A DNA stretch of 35,164 bases. Origin: Planctomycetales bacterium. GTDB taxonomy: Bacteria > Planctomycetota > Planctomycetia > Pirellulales > JAEUIK01. This document shows, in pieces, positions 4,293 through 16,498 of the stretch. Made by a program: the position numbers and the translations under genes. Each line of letters opens with the position of its first letter. Positions within the stretch are counted from its first letter, which is position 1. Location of the stretch: positions 1 through 35,164 of the forward strand of contig JAGQPT010000085.1 in NCBI GenBank assembly GCA_020426575.1, in the 5' to 3' direction. The notes under the pieces were generated by a model, which saw only the letters and a list, made by a program, of their open reading frames with translations, made no database searches and was not told the DNA's origin.

Positions 4293-5726
4293 ATGAACCA
4301 GTCCAGCGCAGTCGCCGAGGTGCTTGGTCGCATGGCCGACTCGGCGATCGTGGCCGAGTATCGCCGCCGCACGCCGACGTCGGCCCGCTTCGCCGATGAA
4401 GCGCGCCACGTGCTGCCGGGCGGTATCACGCACGATGCGCGCCATGTGCTGCCCTATCCCCTTTACGTCGAACGGGCGCATGGTTCGCGGAAGTGGGACG
4501 TCGACGGCAACGAGTACGTCGACTACGCCGGCGGCCACGGTGCGCTGCTGCTGGGCCACAACCACCCGGTCGTCACCGAGGCCATCCAGCGGCAACTCGA
4601 ACGGGGCACGCATTTCGGCACCTGCCACGAGCTGGAATTGCGCTGGGGCGCCCTCGTGCAGCGGCTCATGCCCAGTGCCGAACGTCTCCGCTTCACCAGT
4701 TCCGGCACCGAGGCCACATTGCTGGCCGTCCGCCTGGCCCGCGCCGCCACCGGCCGCAAGAAACTGCTGCGATTTGCCGGCCATTTTCACGGCTGGCACG
4801 ACCACATGGCCTTCGGCGTCAGCGGCGGTTTCGACGCCCCGTCGTCGCCCGGTGTGCTACCGGAGATCACCGAAAACGTCGTGCTCGCGCCGCCGGACGA
4901 CACCCAAGCCACCGAGCGCATTCTTGCCGCAAGCGATGACATCGCCGCCGTGATCATCGAACCGACCGGTGCGAGTTGGGGGCAGGTCCCCGTGCAGCCA
5001 GAGTTCCTCCACGCCCTGCGCGATGCCACAACGCGGCACGGCGCCCTGCTGATCTTCGACGAGGTGATCTCGGGCTTTCGCTGTTCGCCGGGTGGCGCAC
5101 AAGCGGTGCTGGGCATTCGGCCCGACCTCACGACGCTGGCCAAGATTCTCGCCGGCGGGCTTCCCGGCGGCGCCTTGGCAGGCCGGCGCGACGTGCTCGA
5201 ACTCCTCGAATTCGCCGACGTGCGGGCCGCCGAGTTGGGCACTGACGTTACGCCCCGACCGAAAGTGCCGCACCACGGCACGTTCAACGGCAACCCCCTC
5301 TCGGCCGCCGCGGGCATCGCCACACTCGAGATCGTCGCGACCGGCGACGCCTGTCAGCGGGCTTCGGATTACGCCGAACGTCTCAGAACGGCACTCAACG
5401 GGGTGATAGCCGACGAGCGCCTCGACTGGTCGGTATACGGCACGTATTCGGGGTTCCACGTCTTTACGAATCCCGCTGGCGAGTCGATCACGGCCGACGA
5501 CATCGCCGCCGGGCGCGTCGACTACCGCACGCTCAAGTCGCGGCCGGACCCCGCGCTGTTGATGAAGCTGCGGCTGGCCATGCTCGTGCATGGCGTCGAG
5601 TTGTTTTCCTGGCCGGGCGGCCCTACTTCGGCCGTCCACGACGAACGAGATCTCGCCCTCACAGTCGCGGCCTTCGGCAGCGCGCTGCAGATGCTTAAGG
5701 ACGAAGGCGAAATCGGCCGCCGCTAG
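4293..5726 (+). CDS. class III PLP-dependent aminotransferase, glutamate-1-semialdehyde-mutase-like
   Basis: A fold-type I, class III (OAT-like) aminotransferase of 477 residues. Visible features are the N-terminal DVDGNEYVDYAGGHGALLLGH typical of this class, the phosphate-binding SSGTEAT near 136-142, HFHGWHD at 164-170, the PLP-ring aspartate D256 in LLIFDEVISGFR, and the Schiff-base lysine K284 in TLAKILAGGLPGGA. FNGNPLSAAAG follows, as in GSA aminomutase relatives. At 477 residues it is longer than HemL (about 430), and it lacks the HemL N-terminal GGVNSPVR signature, having GGITHDARH instead. It is therefore probably a HemL-like aminotransferase or mutase of another pathway. AGGAAG at 4283-4288 sits four bases from the ATG. 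It follows the glycosyltransferase by about 110 bases; whether they share a pathway is unknown. Confidence 0.88.
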   Translation: MNQSSAVAEVLGRMADSAIVAEYRRRTPTSARFADEARHVLPGGITHDARHVLPYPLYVERAHGSRKWDVDGNEYVDYAGGHGALLLGHNHPVVTEAIQRQLERGTHFGTCHELELRWGALVQRLMPSAERLRFTSSGTEATLLAVRLARAATGRKKLLRFAGHFHGWHDHMAFGVSGGFDAPSSPGVLPEITENVVLAPPDDTQATERILAASDDIAAVIIEPTGASWGQVPVQPEFLHALRDATTRHGALLIFDEVISGFRCSPGGAQAVLGIRPDLTTLAKILAGGLPGGALAGRRDVLELLEFADVRAAELGTDVTPRPKVPHHGTFNGNPLSAAAGIATLEIVATGDACQRASDYAERLRTALNGVIADERLDWSVYGTYSGFHVFTNPAGESITADDIAAGRVDYRTLKSRPDPALLMKLRLAMLVHGVELFSWPGGPTSAVHDERDLALTVAAFGSALQMLKDEGEIGRR

Positions 5727-5742
5727 CGTTCCGCACGAACAC

Positions 5743-7896
5743 TCAATGCGCGTCCAACGCGTCGCGACGAGCCCCTTCGAGCCAGATGCGGGGGTGTCCC
5801 TGAACGCGCTGCATGACCTGTCCCCAGTTCGGCAGGCCGTGCTCGTGCTCCAACCGCGCTGCTTCGGCAGCGCGCTCTAGCGCTGCGTCCGACTCGCCCG
5901 TCATGTGAAGCGCAAGTGCCCAGTGGTAACGATACAGAGCACTGTCGGGGTTCGATTGGGCCGCCGTCGCGAATGAATCGAGCGCCGCTGCAAACTCGCC
6001 GGCCGTCAACAGATCGCGGCCGCGGCTGAATTCGTCGGCTGCCTGCGCGAGGCTTGCCGGTGTGACGTCGGGCGCTCTCACTGCTACCGGCACATCGACG
6101 GGGCGTTCCTCCCGGGGCAATGCGAGAGTGTGATCATGGGCGATGTTGTTCGTTGGCGGCGCGGGCGATTCACGACGCGCCGCAGCGGTGTCTTGTCGAG
6201 GCGATTCGACATGCTGATCTTTCGCCTCGGCAGAGTGGTCATCCGACTCGACGTCTTGATTGAGCACTGCTTCATCGAGCACGACGATTTCAGCGTCGGG
6301 AAGCCGCGGCGACGTCGCCACACCCGGCGTCACGTCCGCCGGCGAAACGACCGACACATCGCTCTCAAACGGCGGCGCCGAAGTCGCTTCGGTGGCACCG
6401 GTAGACGGCCGGGCCGTGCTCGCTTCAGGGGGCCCCTCCACCGTCGTGGCGGCCATGTCGTGTTGGGTGGTCGCAGTGGGGTCGGGGGTAAAGGTGCGCG
6501 GAACGGCCGCAGGGGCAAGCGGCAATTCGGGTGGCGTGTGGTGCTCCACCGTCTCAGCCAACGAGCCGCTTTGCGCCAACGGCTTCGTCAACGACGTTTG
6601 GGCGCGCCGAGCCGTGTGGGGTGCCGTTGGTTCGGTGTGGCGTGGCGCGGTGGGCCGACTCCGTCGTTGCTCGATGTCGGCGGCGGCGCGATTACTCGCG
6701 GTACGATGGCTTGGCGCATCTTCCACGTCATGCCGCCTCACGCCGACCAAGTCGCTGCTCGGGTCGATTGTAATTTCCCGGCCCGCTTCGTCGGGCGAGG
6801 CGAATCTTGCGGCGCCGACGGCGCTTGTCGTCGCATCGCCAGCGATTCTTTCGTCGCCGCTTGCACGTTGTGCAATTGAGGCATCCGTCATAGTGGGCGT
6901 CGCTTCAACGACTGGCGTTTGCGGCGCTGAATCCGACTTCGTCGGTTGCACGTCATGGGGCTCAGCCGCAGCCGAGCTGTCGGCATGACCGACATCCTCA
7001 GTACGAAAACCGGCAAGTTCGACATCGGGTGTGTCCAGGGGCGAGCCGGTCTGCTGGGCCACCGTCTCCACCTGCGATGTCCGAGTTGCCTGCAGCGCCG
7101 GCAGCACCAGCAACGACGGGCCGATAAACATCAGGAACACGGCAACGCCGAACGCCAGGTTGGCCGAGCGTTTGGTCACTTTCCGCGGCGCGGGACCCAG
7201 GCCCCAGGACGACTCGGCCGACGTGCCGTCCAGGGCGAAAGGCATCAGGTGGCAGTGATCGGTCTCGTTGACGAACCGGCAGCCGCCGACGTGCCCTGAA
7301 TCCGTTCGGGCGCTCCAGCACAACTCCGCCGGGATCACGGCCTCGTTGCCCTGCATGGTCGTCATCCGCACGAGCAGCCGATCGCCGGTCGAGCCCATGC
7401 TCGCCGCGCGAAAACAGAAACCACCGAGCGAGGCATCGATGATCTCGATGGGTCGTTCTTCGATGCTCAGTTCCCAGCGGGCCATGGCGACGATTTGCGT
7501 CGGTCGTCGCGCCGCCTGACGGCGTTCGATTTGGCCACGATCGGCGAACATGGCGAGCACGCCATCGGAGAGCTCCGTCTCGCAGTCGCAGCCGACCGAC
7601 CACTTGCCGTCTTCCGTGGGGCGCGACCAACAGACGTTGATGTCGAGTTCAAGCTGCCCGTCCCGACCGCCGGTGCCGTCGTCGAAGTAGACGCGCATCG
7701 TCGCGTGTTCACCTCGCGGCAGACAATCGTCGAGACACAGTCGCACGCCCCCCTGCGACGAGTTGTCAAGCGTGCCGTGGATGACCGCTGGCCGCGTGTT
7801 CTTGTCGCGCAGGATCGTCACCCGCGCAGGATTCGAGCCGCCAAGTTCAAAACGCCGCGATCGGTCGACCATCGTGCGTTGGCGAGGGTTGGGCAT
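5743..7896 (-). CDS. two-PilZ, single-TM protein with long Pro/Thr/Ala linker and C-terminal TPR
   Basis: A 717-residue modular protein. Residues 10-110 form a PilZ-like domain (RSRRF, then DNSSQGGVRL at 44-53). Residues 122-220 form a second one with a fuller signature: RRQAARR at 125-131 and DASLGGF at 154-160, matching the RxxxR and D/NxSxxG elements that bind cyclic di-GMP in PilZ domains. One membrane helix follows (about 247-268). Residues 270-610 are a low-complexity Pro/Thr/Ala/Ser/Glu-rich stretch, probably extracytoplasmic and disordered. Residues 616-690 contain a TPR-like helical repeat (AGEFAAALDSFATAAQSNPDSALYRYHWALALHMTGESDAALERA, in two pieces). The expected topology is cytoplasmic PilZ pair, outside tail. 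ATG 7896 has GGGAG ten bases upstream. Binding of c-di-GMP is inferred from motifs only, and the output is unknown. Confidence 0.82.
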   Translation of the reverse strand: MPNPRQRTMVDRSRRFELGGSNPARVTILRDKNTRPAVIHGTLDNSSQGGVRLCLDDCLPRGEHATMRVYFDDGTGGRDGQLELDINVCWSRPTEDGKWSVGCDCETELSDGVLAMFADRGQIERRQAARRPTQIVAMARWELSIEERPIEIIDASLGGFCFRAASMGSTGDRLLVRMTTMQGNEAVIPAELCWSARTDSGHVGGCRFVNETDHCHLMPFALDGTSAESSWGLGPAPRKVTKRSANLAFGVAVFLMFIGPSLLVLPALQATRTSQVETVAQQTGSPLDTPDVELAGFRTEDVGHADSSAAAEPHDVQPTKSDSAPQTPVVEATPTMTDASIAQRASGDERIAGDATTSAVGAARFASPDEAGREITIDPSSDLVGVRRHDVEDAPSHRTASNRAAADIEQRRSRPTAPRHTEPTAPHTARRAQTSLTKPLAQSGSLAETVEHHTPPELPLAPAAVPRTFTPDPTATTQHDMAATTVEGPPEASTARPSTGATEATSAPPFESDVSVVSPADVTPGVATSPRLPDAEIVVLDEAVLNQDVESDDHSAEAKDQHVESPRQDTAAARRESPAPPTNNIAHDHTLALPREERPVDVPVAVRAPDVTPASLAQAADEFSRGRDLLTAGEFAAALDSFATAAQSNPDSALYRYHWALALHMTGESDAALERAAEAARLEHEHGLPNWGQVMQRVQGHPRIWLEGARRDALDAH

Positions 7897-10890: not shown

Positions 10891-11490
10891 TCAAGTGTAG
10901 GCGACTTCGACGGCCTTATACACGGTGCGGGCCCGGCGGAATCCCATCTCTTCGTAGAGGCGGATCGCGGCTTCGTTCTGAGCCGTCACCTCTAAGAAGG
11001 CCCGTGGCAAGTCTTCCGCCTGAAAACCACGCAGCGCCTTGAGCAGCAAACAAGCCCCTAGGCCAAGGCCGCGGTGTTCGGGCGTCACTCCGAGATTTTG
11101 CACCGCACCAACGCCGCGGGAATCGCGAATGCCCTGGATCGTGCCGCAGTACTCGATGCCGCCCGTCGTGCCCGTGGATACCTTCCCCGCCTCGCCCTTG
11201 GCAGTCAGCGTCTCGCCCTTGGCAATCAACCAAGTTGCCTCGGGCAGAAACCCCTGCTTCCGGGCGATCTCTTCCATCAGTCTCAGACAGCCAGCGTATT
11301 CGCCCAGACATGGAAACACGTTGGCGTCGATTTCCGCCCGAAAGCTGCGGTACTTCGCCTCGGCGTGCCGTTCGAGCAGCGTCGGGCTCCAGGGTAGAAA
11401 TCGGTAACCGGCAGGCAAAACCGGCTCCGGGATGTAACGGCCCGTGAGACCGATTTCCATGCGAAACCGTTTGAAGAACGTCAGATTCAT
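10891..11490 (-). CDS. GNAT-family N-acetyltransferase
   Basis: A 199-residue GCN5-related acetyltransferase that should transfer acetyl from acetyl-CoA to an amine; the substrate is not evident. The acetyl-CoA-binding motif A is VGAVQNLGVTPEHRGLGLG followed by ACLLLKALRGF, with the R-G-L-G-L-G loop. Motif B is FLEVTAQNEAAIRLYEEMGF, ending RRARTVYKAVE, a standard GNAT C-terminus. ATG 11490 (MNLTFFKRFRMEIGL) is chosen; the open frame upstream to 11724 has no typical composition. It is on the same strand as the M16 pair but separated by about 200 bases, so probably its own unit. Confidence 0.85.
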   Translation of the reverse strand: MNLTFFKRFRMEIGLTGRYIPEPVLPAGYRFLPWSPTLLERHAEAKYRSFRAEIDANVFPCLGEYAGCLRLMEEIARKQGFLPEATWLIAKGETLTAKGEAGKVSTGTTGGIEYCGTIQGIRDSRGVGAVQNLGVTPEHRGLGLGACLLLKALRGFQAEDLPRAFLEVTAQNEAAIRLYEEMGFRRARTVYKAVEVAYT

Positions 11491-11825
11491 GCCGGACGGC
11501 CTGACCGAATGAGGAAACGGATTGGCTGGCGCGGCCGACAATAACGCCCGGTCGACGAGGACCGTGACCGTGCAGTGCCTACGCGGCGCGCTGTTAAATG
11601 TAGTCGCGAGCCGCAGAGCGGTCAACGAATCTGGCCCCAATCTCCAATGCTGAAAGACACTTACGCGTATTCTTATCGGCCGTGACACGGCCGTCGTCGG
11701 CAAAATCACAGTTGCGTCGCGCATCCGGAACAGCCCGACTCACCGGCCGCCCTCACAGTGTGGATGCTCGGGGCAATGCGGCACCGGGACAGCCGGGGAA
11801 ATCGATCCAAGCAAAAACTGCTATA

Positions 11826-11841
11826 TTTTGGATGACCAAAA
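11826..11841. promoter_or_regulatory. palindromic operator candidate upstream of metal operon
   Basis: TTTTGGATGACCAAAA has six-base perfect arms and a four-base centre, in an AT-rich patch about 150 bases before the substrate-binding-protein gene. Size and symmetry suit a dimeric repressor such as a DtxR/MntR-type protein. The nearest candidate regulators are the DtxR-like tails encoded in this same operon. Binding is inference. Confidence 0.45.
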
Positions 11842-11929
11842 AAAATATTTTTAGTTATTGAATACCGGCGGCCCGATCAAGTACTCTGAGGCGGTGAGGC
11901 TGTGCGCCGATCGCTCCGCCTGCCAGAGA

Positions 11930-11938
11930 TGGTCATCC
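11930..11938. promoter_or_regulatory. inverted second copy of the operator core
   Basis: TGGTCATCC here is the exact reverse complement of GGATGACCA at 11830-11838. On the minus strand it is preceded by TTTTTC, like the TTTT arm of the upstream site. It lies 56 bases before the first gene of the operon and could be a second, partial binding site. Confidence 0.35.
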
Positions 11939-11993: not shown

Positions 11994-13010
11994 ATGCGTG
12001 ATCGCGATGCGTCTTGGGGACATGCGTTATGGGAGCGTTTGCTCTGGGGAGGCGTCCTGCTGCTGCTCGTCGCCCCGACGGGCTGTGACCATGCCATCGA
12101 CGGCGTCGCACCGTCGGCCACGGATTCTCCCGTCGAAGTCGACGGGTTGTTTCGCGGTCTCGGCCGGCCCTTGCGCGTGGTCTGCACGACCGCCCAGGTG
12201 GCCGACATCGTCAAGAACGTCGGAGGTGGTGACGTCGAAGTCGACACCCTGATGGGCGATGGCGTCGATCCGCACCTGTTTACGGCCACGGCCGGCGACG
12301 TCCATCGTCTGCGGGCGGCTGACCTGATCTTTTACAACGGCCTGCATCTCGAAGGACGCCTGGCCGACACGCTGCACGACCTCGGTGCCACCAAACCGTC
12401 GATTGCCGTGACCACGGGCCTTGTCGATCAAGAACCTGAGCGACTGCGTCGCCCGGCCGAATTCGAGGGCATGTACGACCCACACGTCTGGCTCGACGTC
12501 GCCCTGTGGCACCGATGTGCCGACTATGTGGCGGCCGAACTGTGCCGGCTCGATCCCGAACGCGCCGAGGGCTACCGCCAGCGCGCCGCGGCGTACGGCA
12601 GTGAGTTGAACGCGTTGGACGAGGAGTGTCGTCGACAAATTGCCGAGATTCCCGTTCGGCAGCGCGTGATGGTGACGGCCCACGACGCCTTCGGCTATTT
12701 CGGCCGCGCCTACGACGTCGAAGTCCGCGGGCTGCAAGGGATCAGCACCGCCGACGAGGCGGACCTGGTGACGCTCGGTGCGCTGATCGACCTGCTGGTC
12801 GAGCGCGGCGTGAAGGCAGTGTTCGTCGAGAGCAGCGTCTCGGAAAAATACGTTCAGGCGCTCGTCGAGGGCTGCGCGGCGCGGGGCCACGACGTTCGCA
12901 TCGGCGGCGAGTTATACTCAGACGCCATGGGGCCCGACGGCACGCCCGAGGGCACATACGTCGGCATGGTGCGTCACAATGTCGACACCATCGCCCATGC
13001 ACTCAAATAA
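11994..13010 (+). CDS. metal ABC transporter substrate-binding lipoprotein (TroA/YtgA/MntA type)
   Basis: The cluster A-I substrate-binding protein of a Mn/Fe/Zn importer, anchored outside the cytoplasmic membrane. It has a signal sequence (about 12-30) ending in a lipobox-like APTGC with C31. Four metal ligands can be placed from the family pattern: H94 in VDPHLF, H164 in YDPHVW, H230 in [10 protein letters not shown] and D310 in LYSDAMG. This His3Asp set is that of TroA and chlamydial YtgA, not the glutamate-containing PsaA/MntC site, and there is no His-rich loop of the ZnuA kind. The metal (Mn, Fe or Zn) therefore cannot be fixed. It heads a four-gene operon: the ATPase begins 45 bases after its stop, and the later genes overlap. 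Confidence 0.93.
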
Positions 13011-13054
13011 TTCCGCTCAGCGCTGATTCACGGTTCCTCACCCCATCGCCCACG

Positions 13055-13822
13055 ATGTCCGCCCCCCCAGTCGAGATTCATGACGTCACCGTCGCCTACG
13101 ATCGCAAACCCGTTTTGTGGGACATCGACGTCACGATCCCTGAAGGCAAGATGGTCGGCATCGTCGGCCCCAACGGCGCCGGAAAGAGCACGTTGATCAA
13201 GGCGATGCTGGGGCTGCTCGCGCTGGCCAGCGGCAAGATCGAAATCTTCGGGCGCCCCTCGGCCCAACAACGTCACCTCGTTGGATATGTTCCGCAGCGC
13301 GAGACGGTCGACTGGGACTTTCCTGTCACGGCCAAGGACGTCGTGATGATGGGAACGTACGGCCGACTTGGCTGGTTTCGTCGTCCCGGCCGCGCCGAAC
13401 GGCAATTGGCCGACGAATGCCTCGCCAGCGTGGGGATGGCGGACTTCGCCGACCGGCAGATACACCGTCTCTCGGGCGGGCAACAACAGCGCGTGTTCCT
13501 GGCCCGCGCCCTCGCGCAACAGGCGCGGCTCTATTTCATGGACGAGCCGTTCGCCGGTGTCGACGCCGCCACCGAACAGGCGATCGTCGCCACGCTTAAA
13601 CAGCTTCGCGCCGAGGGCAAGACCGTGCTTGTCGTGCATCACGACCTACAGACGGTCCGCGACTATTTCGACTGGGTGATGCTGCTCAATATGCGGCTCG
13701 TTGCTGCCGGACCGACTGAAACGACATTTACTTCGGCCAACCTCGACGCCACCTATGGCGGTCGGCTCACGGCCCTGGACGTGGCGGCCGAGGCCGTGCG
13801 ACAGCGGGAGTCGGCCCAGTGA
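13055..13822 (+). CDS. metal ABC transporter ATP-binding protein
   Basis: The 255-residue ATPase of the importer. Walker A is GPNGAGKST at 38-46, the signature is LSGGQQQR, Walker B is [12 protein letters not shown], and the switch histidine is in VLVVHHDL. The sequence [26 protein letters not shown] (in two parts: [23 protein letters not shown]) is typical of Mn/Zn/Fe (MntB/YtgB/ZnuC) ATPases, which all share the VDWDFP segment after the Q-loop. The open frame upstream to 12626 overlaps the binding-protein gene and is Arg-rich. ATG 13055 starts the domain normally. Its stop overlaps the GTG of the first permease (GTGA). Confidence 0.94.
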
Positions 13823-15180
13823 CGTATTCCACCTTCATGGTGCTGTTGGGCACGTCGCTGCTGGGATGCGTGGCCGGCGTCGTTGGTTGCTTTAGCGTGT
13901 TGCGCCGCCGCGCCTTGATCGGGGACGTGTTGGCCCATGCCGCGCTGCCGGGGCTGTGTTTGGCTTACCTCGTGGTGGGTGAACGACACTTCGCCTCACT
14001 GTTGGGCGGCGCCTGGTTGGCCGGCGTCGTCGGCGTCGGCGTGATAAGTTTCGTGTGCCGCTGGACCCGCACAAAGGAAGACGCTGCCATCGGTATCGTG
14101 CTTAGCACCTTTTTCGGCTTCGGCGTCGTGTTGCTATCGGTGATCCAGCGCTCGGCCGGGCTCAGTGGCAAGGCGGGGCTCAACACGTTCATTTTCGGTC
14201 AGGCCGCCGCGATTGTGCGGCGCGACGTTTGGCTGATCGCCGGCATCTCATTCGCCGTGCTGATCGTCGTCGCCCTGCTCTACAAAGAATTCAAACTGCT
14301 GAGTTTTGACAACGACTTTGCCCAGGCCCAAGGCTGGCCCGTCGGTTGGCTCGACTTGGTGATGATGGGACTGCTGACCGTCGTGACCGTCGTCGGGCTG
14401 CCGGCTGTCGGCGTCGTCCTGATGGCGGCGATGCTGATCATCCCCGGCGCGGCGGCCCGTTTTTGGACCGACCGGCTCGGTGTCATGCTGCTCGCTGCAG
14501 GTATGATCGGCATGATCGCCTCGTGCGTCGGTACGTTGGTCTCGGCCGGCTACCTCGTACCCACCGCCCTGCTACCCACCGCGGCGGCCAGCGGACGCGT
14601 CATGGGACTGCCGACCGGCCCGCTGATCGTGTTGGCTGGCGCCGCTATTTTTCTGGGCTCGGTCATGTTTGCTCCCGGACGTGGCGTTGTGGCGCAGTGG
14701 TGGTCCGACGCGCGGTTGCGCCGGCGGACGGCCGAAGAGAACCTGCTGCGGGCGATGTACGAGTGCAACGAACCGGTATTGCCACGCTGCGACGACGTCG
14801 ACTTGGGACAGTTGCGTCTGCAGCGCGATTGGCGGCCCGGCTGGTTCAACTGGGCCCTGCGGCGCGCGTCGGCGCGGGGCTGGATTGAGCTGGCGACTGC
14901 GCACGCCCGACTCACCGATGCCGGTCTCCACGAAGCCGCCCGCATCACCCGCCTGCATCGACTCTGGGAGACGTTCTTGATCAAGGGGGCGCACATCGCG
15001 CCCGACCACGTCGACCGCGACGCCGACTCGATCGAGCACTTCCTCGGTGTGACTGAGGTCGCAGCGCTCGAAGCCACTCTTGCTCAGAAACACGTTGGCC
15101 GTATCGGTGCGGACGATGTTCCGGCGTCTCCCCACGCGATCTCGACGGCCGACACGCAGCGCGAGGCGGGCCATGGCTGA
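13819..15180 (+). CDS. metal ABC permease fused to C-terminal DtxR/MntR-like domain (YtgCR-like)
   Basis: A 453-residue fusion. Residues 1-290 are an ABC-3 family permease with about eight or nine membrane helices, beginning [20 protein letters not shown] and including [18 protein letters not shown] and the conserved [19 protein letters not shown]. From about 296 the sequence turns soluble. A winged-helix-like segment spans 304-370 ([20 protein letters not shown] as probable recognition helix, then ARLTDAG). The DtxR/MntR metal-binding and dimerisation helices follow: H380 in LHRLWETFL and E406-H407 in [10 protein letters not shown]. Against MntR's E-x-x-E-H the first position is D403. The nearest described case is Chlamydia YtgCR, where the repressor is cleaved from the permease and binds its own promoter. 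GTG start, four-base overlap with the ATPase gene. Confidence 0.9.
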
Positions 15181-16498
15181 CTGGTTCGCCGCAGAACTTG
15201 CGCTTTGGCAGTCGTCGGTGTGGGTGATCGCCGTCGCCGCCGTCACCAACGCGGCCTGCGCGCTGCTGGGTTGTTACCTCGTGCTGCGACGCATGAGTTT
15301 GCTCGGCGACGCGCTCTCGCACGCCGTCCTTCCTGGCTTGGTCGTGGCGTTCGCCATGTCCGGTTCGCTCAACATTGGGGCGATGTTCGTGGGCGCGTTT
15401 GTCGCCGGCCTGGCAACGACGTTCCTCACCGACGTGTTGCACCGCCAGGCCGCCGTGCCCGCCGACGCGGCCATGGGCGTCGTGTTCACGTCCCTGTTTG
15501 CCCTGGGTGTGGTGATGCTCAAGTGGGTCGGCCAAAGTGCCCACATCGACGCCGACTGCGTGCTGTTCGGCCGTCTCGACTTGGTCGAGTTCCAAACCGT
15601 CTCGCTGGCCGGCATCCGGTTTCCTCGGGCGCTGGTCACGATCGCACCGGTGCTGCTCGTCAACTTGATCTTCATCCTGCTTTGCTGGAAAGAACTGTTG
15701 ATCACGTCGTTCGACGCCGCTCTAGCCGACACGATCGGCATTCGCACGTCGTGGCTGCACTACGCCCTGATGACACTCGTCGCTGCCACGAGCGTGGCCT
15801 CGTTCGAGGCCGTCGGTTCGATCCTCGTCGTGGCCATGTTCATCGCACCGGCCGCCTCCGCTCATCTGCTCTGTGACCGGCTTTCCAGCATGATCTTCAC
15901 AGCGGTCGGTATCGCCGTGCTCAGCGCCGTCGCCGGTTATCGACTTGCCGTGCTGACCGACACCAGTGCCGCCGGCATGATGGCGGTCGTCGTGGGCGGA
16001 TGTTTTGCCACGGCGGTGCTGCTCTCACCACGCTACGGCGTCGGCGTCAAACTCTGGCAAAACGTGGCCACCGCCGAACGCATCATCCGTGAAGACCTGT
16101 TGGCGATGTTCTATCGTCTGGAGGAACTCGCCGTCGGTCGCCTTTTGGGACCTGGCGAGGCCGTGCAGGCGGTCGGTGGCGGCCTGCTCGCCCGCTGGGG
16201 GCTCTGGTCGCTGCGACGAGCCCGCCTCATCGAGCGCCGGTCCGACGGTGTGCAACTCACGAACCTCGGCCGGCAACGCGCCCAGCAACTCGTCCGTTCC
16301 CACCGGCTCTGGGAGACCTACCTCGTCACCTACCTCGACCTGCCCTTGGACCACGTGCACGCACCGGCCGAACGCATGGAGCACTTCATCTCGCCGGAAC
16401 TGCAACAACAGATCGAGGCGGACTTGAACGTTGTGGAAGAAGACCCACACGGCCGCGCCATCCCGCCCCGCCCCGACGATCCGACCAACGGAGGGTGA
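15173..16498 (+). CDS. second metal ABC permease, also fused to a DtxR/MntR-like domain
   Basis: A 441-residue paralogue of the preceding permease and presumed second half of the channel. Residues 1-290 are the ABC-3 permease (LGCYLVLRRMSLLGDALSHAVLPGL cut as LVLRRMSLLGDALSHAVLPG; VGSILVVAMFIAPAASAHLL). Residues 300-441 are a soluble tail with a winged-helix-like part (GGGLLARWGLWSLRRARLIERR, shortened as LWSLRRARLIERR, then VQLTNLG). A well-kept DtxR dimerisation/metal domain follows: H377 in SHRLWETYL, E400-x-x-E403-H404 in APAERMEHFIS, and DPHGRAIP at 424-431, the usual DtxR-family end motif. It is closer to MntR than the tail of the first permease. ATG 15173 overlaps the previous stop by eight bases. 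In Chlamydia the second permease YtgD has, to my knowledge, no such tail. Confidence 0.9.
   Translation: MADWFAAELALWQSSVWVIAVAAVTNAACALLGCYLVLRRMSLLGDALSHAVLPGLVVAFAMSGSLNIGAMFVGAFVAGLATTFLTDVLHRQAAVPADAAMGVVFTSLFALGVVMLKWVGQSAHIDADCVLFGRLDLVEFQTVSLAGIRFPRALVTIAPVLLVNLIFILLCWKELLITSFDAALADTIGIRTSWLHYALMTLVAATSVASFEAVGSILVVAMFIAPAASAHLLCDRLSSMIFTAVGIAVLSAVAGYRLAVLTDTSAAGMMAVVVGGCFATAVLLSPRYGVGVKLWQNVATAERIIREDLLAMFYRLEELAVGRLLGPGEAVQAVGGGLLARWGLWSLRRARLIERRSDGVQLTNLGRQRAQQLVRSHRLWETYLVTYLDLPLDHVHAPAERMEHFISPELQQQIEADLNVVEEDPHGRAIPPRPDDPTNGG

Follow-up and report, generated by a model that had tools for sequence, protein, structure and literature searches.

The window analysed here, a stretch of 35,164 nucleotides, contains an operon for a metal ABC importer, in which both ABC-3 permeases end in a DtxR-type domain (PF02742), and a putative operator upstream of it. 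The features referred to below are located as follows.

11819 to 11827, plus strand: possible -10 element of the extended type (TGCTATATT), next to the operator
11826 to 11841, no strand assigned: putative primary operator TTTTGG-ATGA-CCAAAA, a TroR/MntR-type dyad with the consensus TTTTGR-N4-YCAAAA
11849 to 11864, no strand assigned: weaker tandem operator copy TTTTAGTTATTGAATA, a putative second dimer site that follows the primary one at about 22 bp
11994 to 13010, plus strand: opening gene of the operon, for the importer's metal-binding lipoprotein (PF01297, ZnuA/MntC family)
13052 to 13822 (likely), plus strand: ABC ATPase, nearest to Mn/Fe ABC ATPase models
13819 to 15180, plus strand: permease 1 (PF00950) with a C-terminal DtxR-like domain
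14716 to 15177: DtxR-like tail of permease 1
about 15173 to 16498, plus strand: permease 2 (PF00950) with a C-terminal DtxR-like domain
16031 to 16495, plus strand: tail of permease 2, with a DtxR/MntR fold, the residues at the ligand positions kept and the recognition helix eroded

The likely start of permease 2, the ATG at 15173, overlaps the stop of permease 1. A gene for a GNAT acetyltransferase at positions 10891 to 11490 on the minus strand (likely start around 11490) points away from the operon, and several relatives (L096, L097, L117-L119) have a GNAT homologue in the same divergent arrangement. This gene was disfavoured as the main target of the operator, because its likely start is located some 336 bp away. 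There was no separate regulator gene near the operon within the window, and for the window the earlier note was right on this point. Furthermore, no Rfam family of structured RNA was identified within the window, and a scan for a consensus sigma-70 promoter beside the operator at 11826 found none.

The palindrome TTTTGGATGACCAAAA at positions 11826 to 11841, whose position and letters are those given in the earlier note, consists of two 6-bp arms separated by a non-palindromic ATGA spacer. It is the sole 6-4-6 palindrome in the intergenic region, with 0.07 expected per shuffle. The pattern TTTTGRNNNNYCAAAA (TTTTGR-N4-YCAAAA) occurred a single time in the window, and the 5.27-Mb genome contained two exact matches, namely the site at 11826 and a site on contig C53, compared with zero matches for the reversed control pattern in the same genome. 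Over 58 genomes, the pattern was counted 158 times and the control 63 times.

Conservation upstream of orthologues had been put forward earlier as the test that might refute an operator, and when we ran it, allowing a single mismatch, the motif was found upstream of 29 of the 36 orthologous metal-ABC operons, all of which were syntenic, of the same order and had readable upstream DNA, the operon of the window being one of them. In most cases, 120 to 240 nt separated the motif from the conserved part of the downstream binding-protein gene. The positions in the arms were nearly invariant across the sites and the four bases in the centre varied, which is the pattern expected of the operator of a dimer. 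An offset scan of 29 operons showed that a second, weaker copy was enriched at +20 to +23 only, with a peak at 22. The copy at positions 11849 to 11864 in the window, two helical turns from the primary site, is weak; it obtained a score of 6.0 with a profile built from the conserved primary sites, and the overlapping register at 11848 was within the top 6 of the 35149 window positions.

The tro promoter oligonucleotide of Treponema denticola contains ATTTTGATATATCAAAAT, with TTTTGA-N4-TCAAAA inside, and after a change of four operator bases TroR gave only 23% repression (PMC2628430). The core of this operator, TTTTGATATATCAAAA, which was tested with a reporter, is identical in its letters to the site in one of the relatives (G011, locus L039). 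The TroR systems of T. denticola and T. pallidum share the dyad, upstream of the ABC cation importer troABCD(R) (PMC2628430). The window differs from them in the inner base, which is G/C (TTTTGG..CCAAAA), in that troR is not in the operon, in the weak tandem second copy that follows, and in the DtxR-like tails of the permeases. The sites of SloR in Streptococcus mutans, which are bound cooperatively, measure 18 bp with 4-bp gaps (PMC12096823). SloR resembles the system studied here in its tandem palindromes with a 22-bp period, as in the window and the relatives, and in its control of both an ABC importer (sloABC) and mntH, like the targets of the planctomycete motif, but differs in its AATTAA-type half-site, its 6-6-6 layout and its phylum. 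Judged by the letter match to TroR and the SloR-like period of 22 bp, the element in the window is a predicted TroR-type operator, a kind that is already known.

The second exact copy of the operator in the genome (L073, positions 12108 to 12123 of contig C53) is located 31 nt before a gene for an outer-membrane-barrel-like protein (PF13557). Among 20 genomes with an orthologue of this gene at 41% identity or more, 15 had the motif before it. One of the 5 orthologues without the motif belonged to a genome that lacks the regulator, another was cut by a contig end, and the remaining 3 were found in genomes that contain mntH in place of the operon, in 2 of which the barrel gene was located directly upstream of mntH. 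Among weaker PF13557 homologues, the motif was present in 1 of 10. The barrel gene was located beside or near a manganese transporter in 5 genomes (G017, G054, G023, G039 and G014), and its product is a candidate for an outer-membrane manganese channel. The Mn-responsive MnoP of Bradyrhizobium, which is controlled by Mur of the Fur family, is likewise an outer-membrane protein in a manganese-uptake regulon; the comparison does not imply that the two are related.

Strong MntH proteins (NRAMP, E < 1e-120) were identified in this order only in genomes without the fused ABC operon, and often there. It was also noted that strong MntH and the fused operon look mutually exclusive (G018, G021, G023, G034, G039, G050). 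With up to one mismatch allowed, the motif was present within 600 nt of 3 of the 6 strong mntH genes; a fourth is located downstream of the motif in a cluster with the order barrel gene, site, DUF1559 gene and mntH, and a fifth showed a match with two mismatches. None of the 11 other NRAMP genes had the motif. In addition, three genomes (L098, L108, L120) contained the exact operator 28 to 53 nt upstream of pseudopilin-like genes of the DUF1559 family (PF07596), one of which is that in the barrel-DUF1559-mntH cluster, and these genes are possible new members of a manganese regulon. The MntH targets, the best models for the ATPase and the nearest solved relatives of the regulator suggest that the metal is most likely manganese. 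The conservation, the regulon and the identity to the tested TroR operator lend strong support to the palindrome at 11826 as the predicted operator of a metal-dependent repressor, which we infer to bind it.

A stand-alone protein of about 230 amino acids was found in nearly all of the relatives; it has an intact helix-turn-helix, a dimer and metal domain, and a C-terminal extension. Both the motif and this stand-alone regulator were found in 26 genomes, the motif only in 3 (G000, which is the genome of the window, G002 and G045), the regulator only in 2, both of them distant operons, and neither in 5. The Fisher p value for this association was 0.0026; it fell to 2e-4 when the two distant operons were left out and to 1e-4 when the count was confined to genomes at least 95% complete. 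These tests ignore phylogeny, and the genomes with neither were spread over four families. In more distant loci from Verrucomicrobia (L201) and Phycisphaerae (L214), a gene for a three-domain regulator is divergent to the operon with the exact site at the junction, and in Kiritimatiellia (L261) the regulator is located about 2.5 kb away in the same locus, with the exact site upstream of the gene for the binding protein. Against this, at locus L215 the three-domain regulator is adjacent, and a variant dyad is located upstream of the regulator and not of the operon.

The recognition helices and the operators were also found to co-vary. Helices of the PGT-T-M type were paired with TTTTGA..TCAAAA or GTTTGA..TCAAAC operators and the PASVTNM helix with a TTTAGG..CCTAAA operator, and loci with a short MntR of the SHVTV type contained no such motif. 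In 2 of the genomes with neither motif nor stand-alone regulator (G014, locus L058, and G056, locus L069), the operon is adjoined by a divergent gene for a short two-domain MntR of this other helix type, and the TTTTGA motif is missing. Further loci with an SHVTV-type MntR and without the TTTTGA motif are L204, L207, L222, L227 and L228. The SHVTV-type loci appear to represent a natural replacement of the regulator along with its operator.

The ligand residues of the relatives' regulator, as read in A1, are N5, E99, E102, H103, H76, E80 and H95, with D instead of N5 in one of six sequences. This is the pattern reported for TroR, with N at the position of M10 and E at that of C102 in DtxR, and with E105, H106, H79, E83 and H98 kept; TroR itself has N10 and E102 as ligands, and the T. 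denticola protein contains an SH3-like third domain. The best PDB sequence matches of the regulator were the metal-dependent 5zr4, DR2539, SloR and ScaR, with IdeR and DtxR behind, and like DR2539 it has Lys at the position of E11 in MntR. DR2539 (MntR) of Deinococcus radiodurans is a DtxR-family Mn/Fe-dependent repressor of a manganese importer (PMC3327659; PDB 8pvt, 8pw0). It differs in that it represses mntH and not a fused ABC operon, and the likeness to the system described here rests on the protein and not on the letters of the operator.

The earlier note had proposed a repressor that binds two sites, possibly with looping, the second site being an inverted copy of the palindrome core. 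This 9-mer, TGGTCATCC, is indeed present at positions 11930 to 11938, 55 bases ahead of the ATG at 11994, and the exact nine-base inverted match would favour a looping pair of operators 100 bp apart, as would the rarity by chance of this particular 9-mer in this stretch (about 0.05% by shuffling), but it was noticed post hoc, and some inverted 9-mer pair was present in 13% of shuffles of the region. Read as a site, the 9-mer is mismatched at 4 of 12 consensus positions, lacks the TTTT arm, and has a profile score of -3.9; 78 places in the window score at least as high. Furthermore, no site was enriched in the relatives at an offset of about 100 bp, as the copy at 11930 would require, and the 9-mer is background. 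A second site is nevertheless retained in kind, in the form of the conserved tandem copy; as this copy follows the primary site at a distance of only about 22 bp, there is no need for looping, and the pairing of 11826 with 11930, which we rejected on the profile score and the missing conservation, has hardly any probability left.

Another suggestion was that the obvious repressor candidates are the tails of the permeases, which, anchored in the membrane, would attach to the palindrome and control their own operon. The tails are the sole DtxR-family domains found in this assembly, and they have the right fold: the predicted structure of the permease 2 tail, of high confidence (pLDDT 90.7), matched the structures of DR2539 and DtxR, with DR2539 as the best fold match (TM 0.71 by query), and a profile alignment of the tail with the stand-alone regulator covered 132 columns. 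The residues H91, E95, H110, E117 and H118 at the ligand positions were invariant in 25 tails. However, the recognition-helix region of the tails had a mean conservation of 0.44, compared with 0.85 in the stand-alone regulators, and the SPGTVTSMLKTL of the latter was replaced in the tails by Gly-rich and hydrophobic-rich stretches. The motif also tracks the stand-alone regulator and not the tails, in that tails occur in five genomes without the motif (G038, G047, G014, G052 and G056), genomes with the motif nearly always contain the regulator, and the motif before mntH persists in genomes without any tailed permease. The helix erosion and the co-occurrence led us to reject the tails as DNA-binding repressors, and autoregulation by them is very improbable. 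The tails are probably metal-sensing and not DNA-binding, and in the reading that we favour they may sense metal and act as a brake on the importer; most likely, repression is the work of a separate protein.

A stand-alone DtxR-family gene was not found in this assembly, which is 90.3% complete and consists of 610 contigs. In most relatives, mch is the divergent neighbour of the regulator gene, but beside mch in this genome (L268, contig C224, positions 5372 to 6943) no regulator was found, and other open reading frames occupy its place. The regulator has been lost, has moved or is unassembled in this organism. Among the 29 genomes with the motif, about 1.6 absences of the regulator were expected from the summed incompleteness and 3 were observed, and it is plausible that the gene is merely missing from the assembly. 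That the genome retains two intact operators speaks for a regulator that still acts in this organism. The absence of a DtxR-family regulator from the assembly would also be compatible with a site for a regulator from a different family, such as Fur, Zur, Mur or an unrelated protein, but there was no match to a Fur-family protein in this genome, and the Fur family was set aside on that ground. The co-occurrence, the physical linkage and the co-variation of helix and operator all favour a DtxR/TroR-type regulator, as does the identity with the tested TroR operator, so that a regulator of another family is improbable.

The palindrome is thus very probably the operator of a manganese-uptake regulon under a stand-alone three-domain repressor of the TroR type. 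When cytoplasmic Mn(II), and perhaps Fe(II) too, is sufficient, this DtxR-family protein would load the metal, and the metal-loaded dimer would bind TTTTGR-N4-YCAAAA; another dimer would occupy the weaker tandem copy, two helical turns further downstream. The bound repressor would block transcription of the metal ABC importer, and when the metal is scarce it would be released and the operon expressed. The operator, its conservation, the regulon, the tandem copy, the match to TroR, and the co-occurrence and physical linkage of the regulator were read from sequence comparisons, and it is from these that we infer the metal, the binding, the repression and the persistence of the regulator in this organism.

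The kind of operator is known, and the regulon is new for Planctomycetota. No described manganese regulon in Planctomycetota was found in the open literature searched, where queries for Planctomycetes with MntR, DtxR or manganese transport gave nothing relevant; a search with the letters of the motif gave no match, although the same letters are contained in a TroR oligonucleotide. For operons that sequence models leave between zinc, manganese and iron, the analysis would fix the metal (most likely manganese), the class of regulator and the operator. The operator also points to new members of the regulon, such as the PF13557 barrel, with a manganese role that can be tested, and some DUF1559 proteins. 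As a tentative and somewhat doubtful extension, Planctomycetota may have a TroR-type manganese regulon that includes the PF13557 barrel as a Mn(II) channel, and may in addition gate the importer itself through DtxR domains on both permeases, which no longer bind DNA but would sense metal in the cytoplasm and inhibit transport. If this is true, one metal-sensing fold would serve in two roles, repressing transcription in the regulator and braking transport in the permeases, and the tails with their eroded helices raise the question of whether repressor folds have been reused as brakes on transport.
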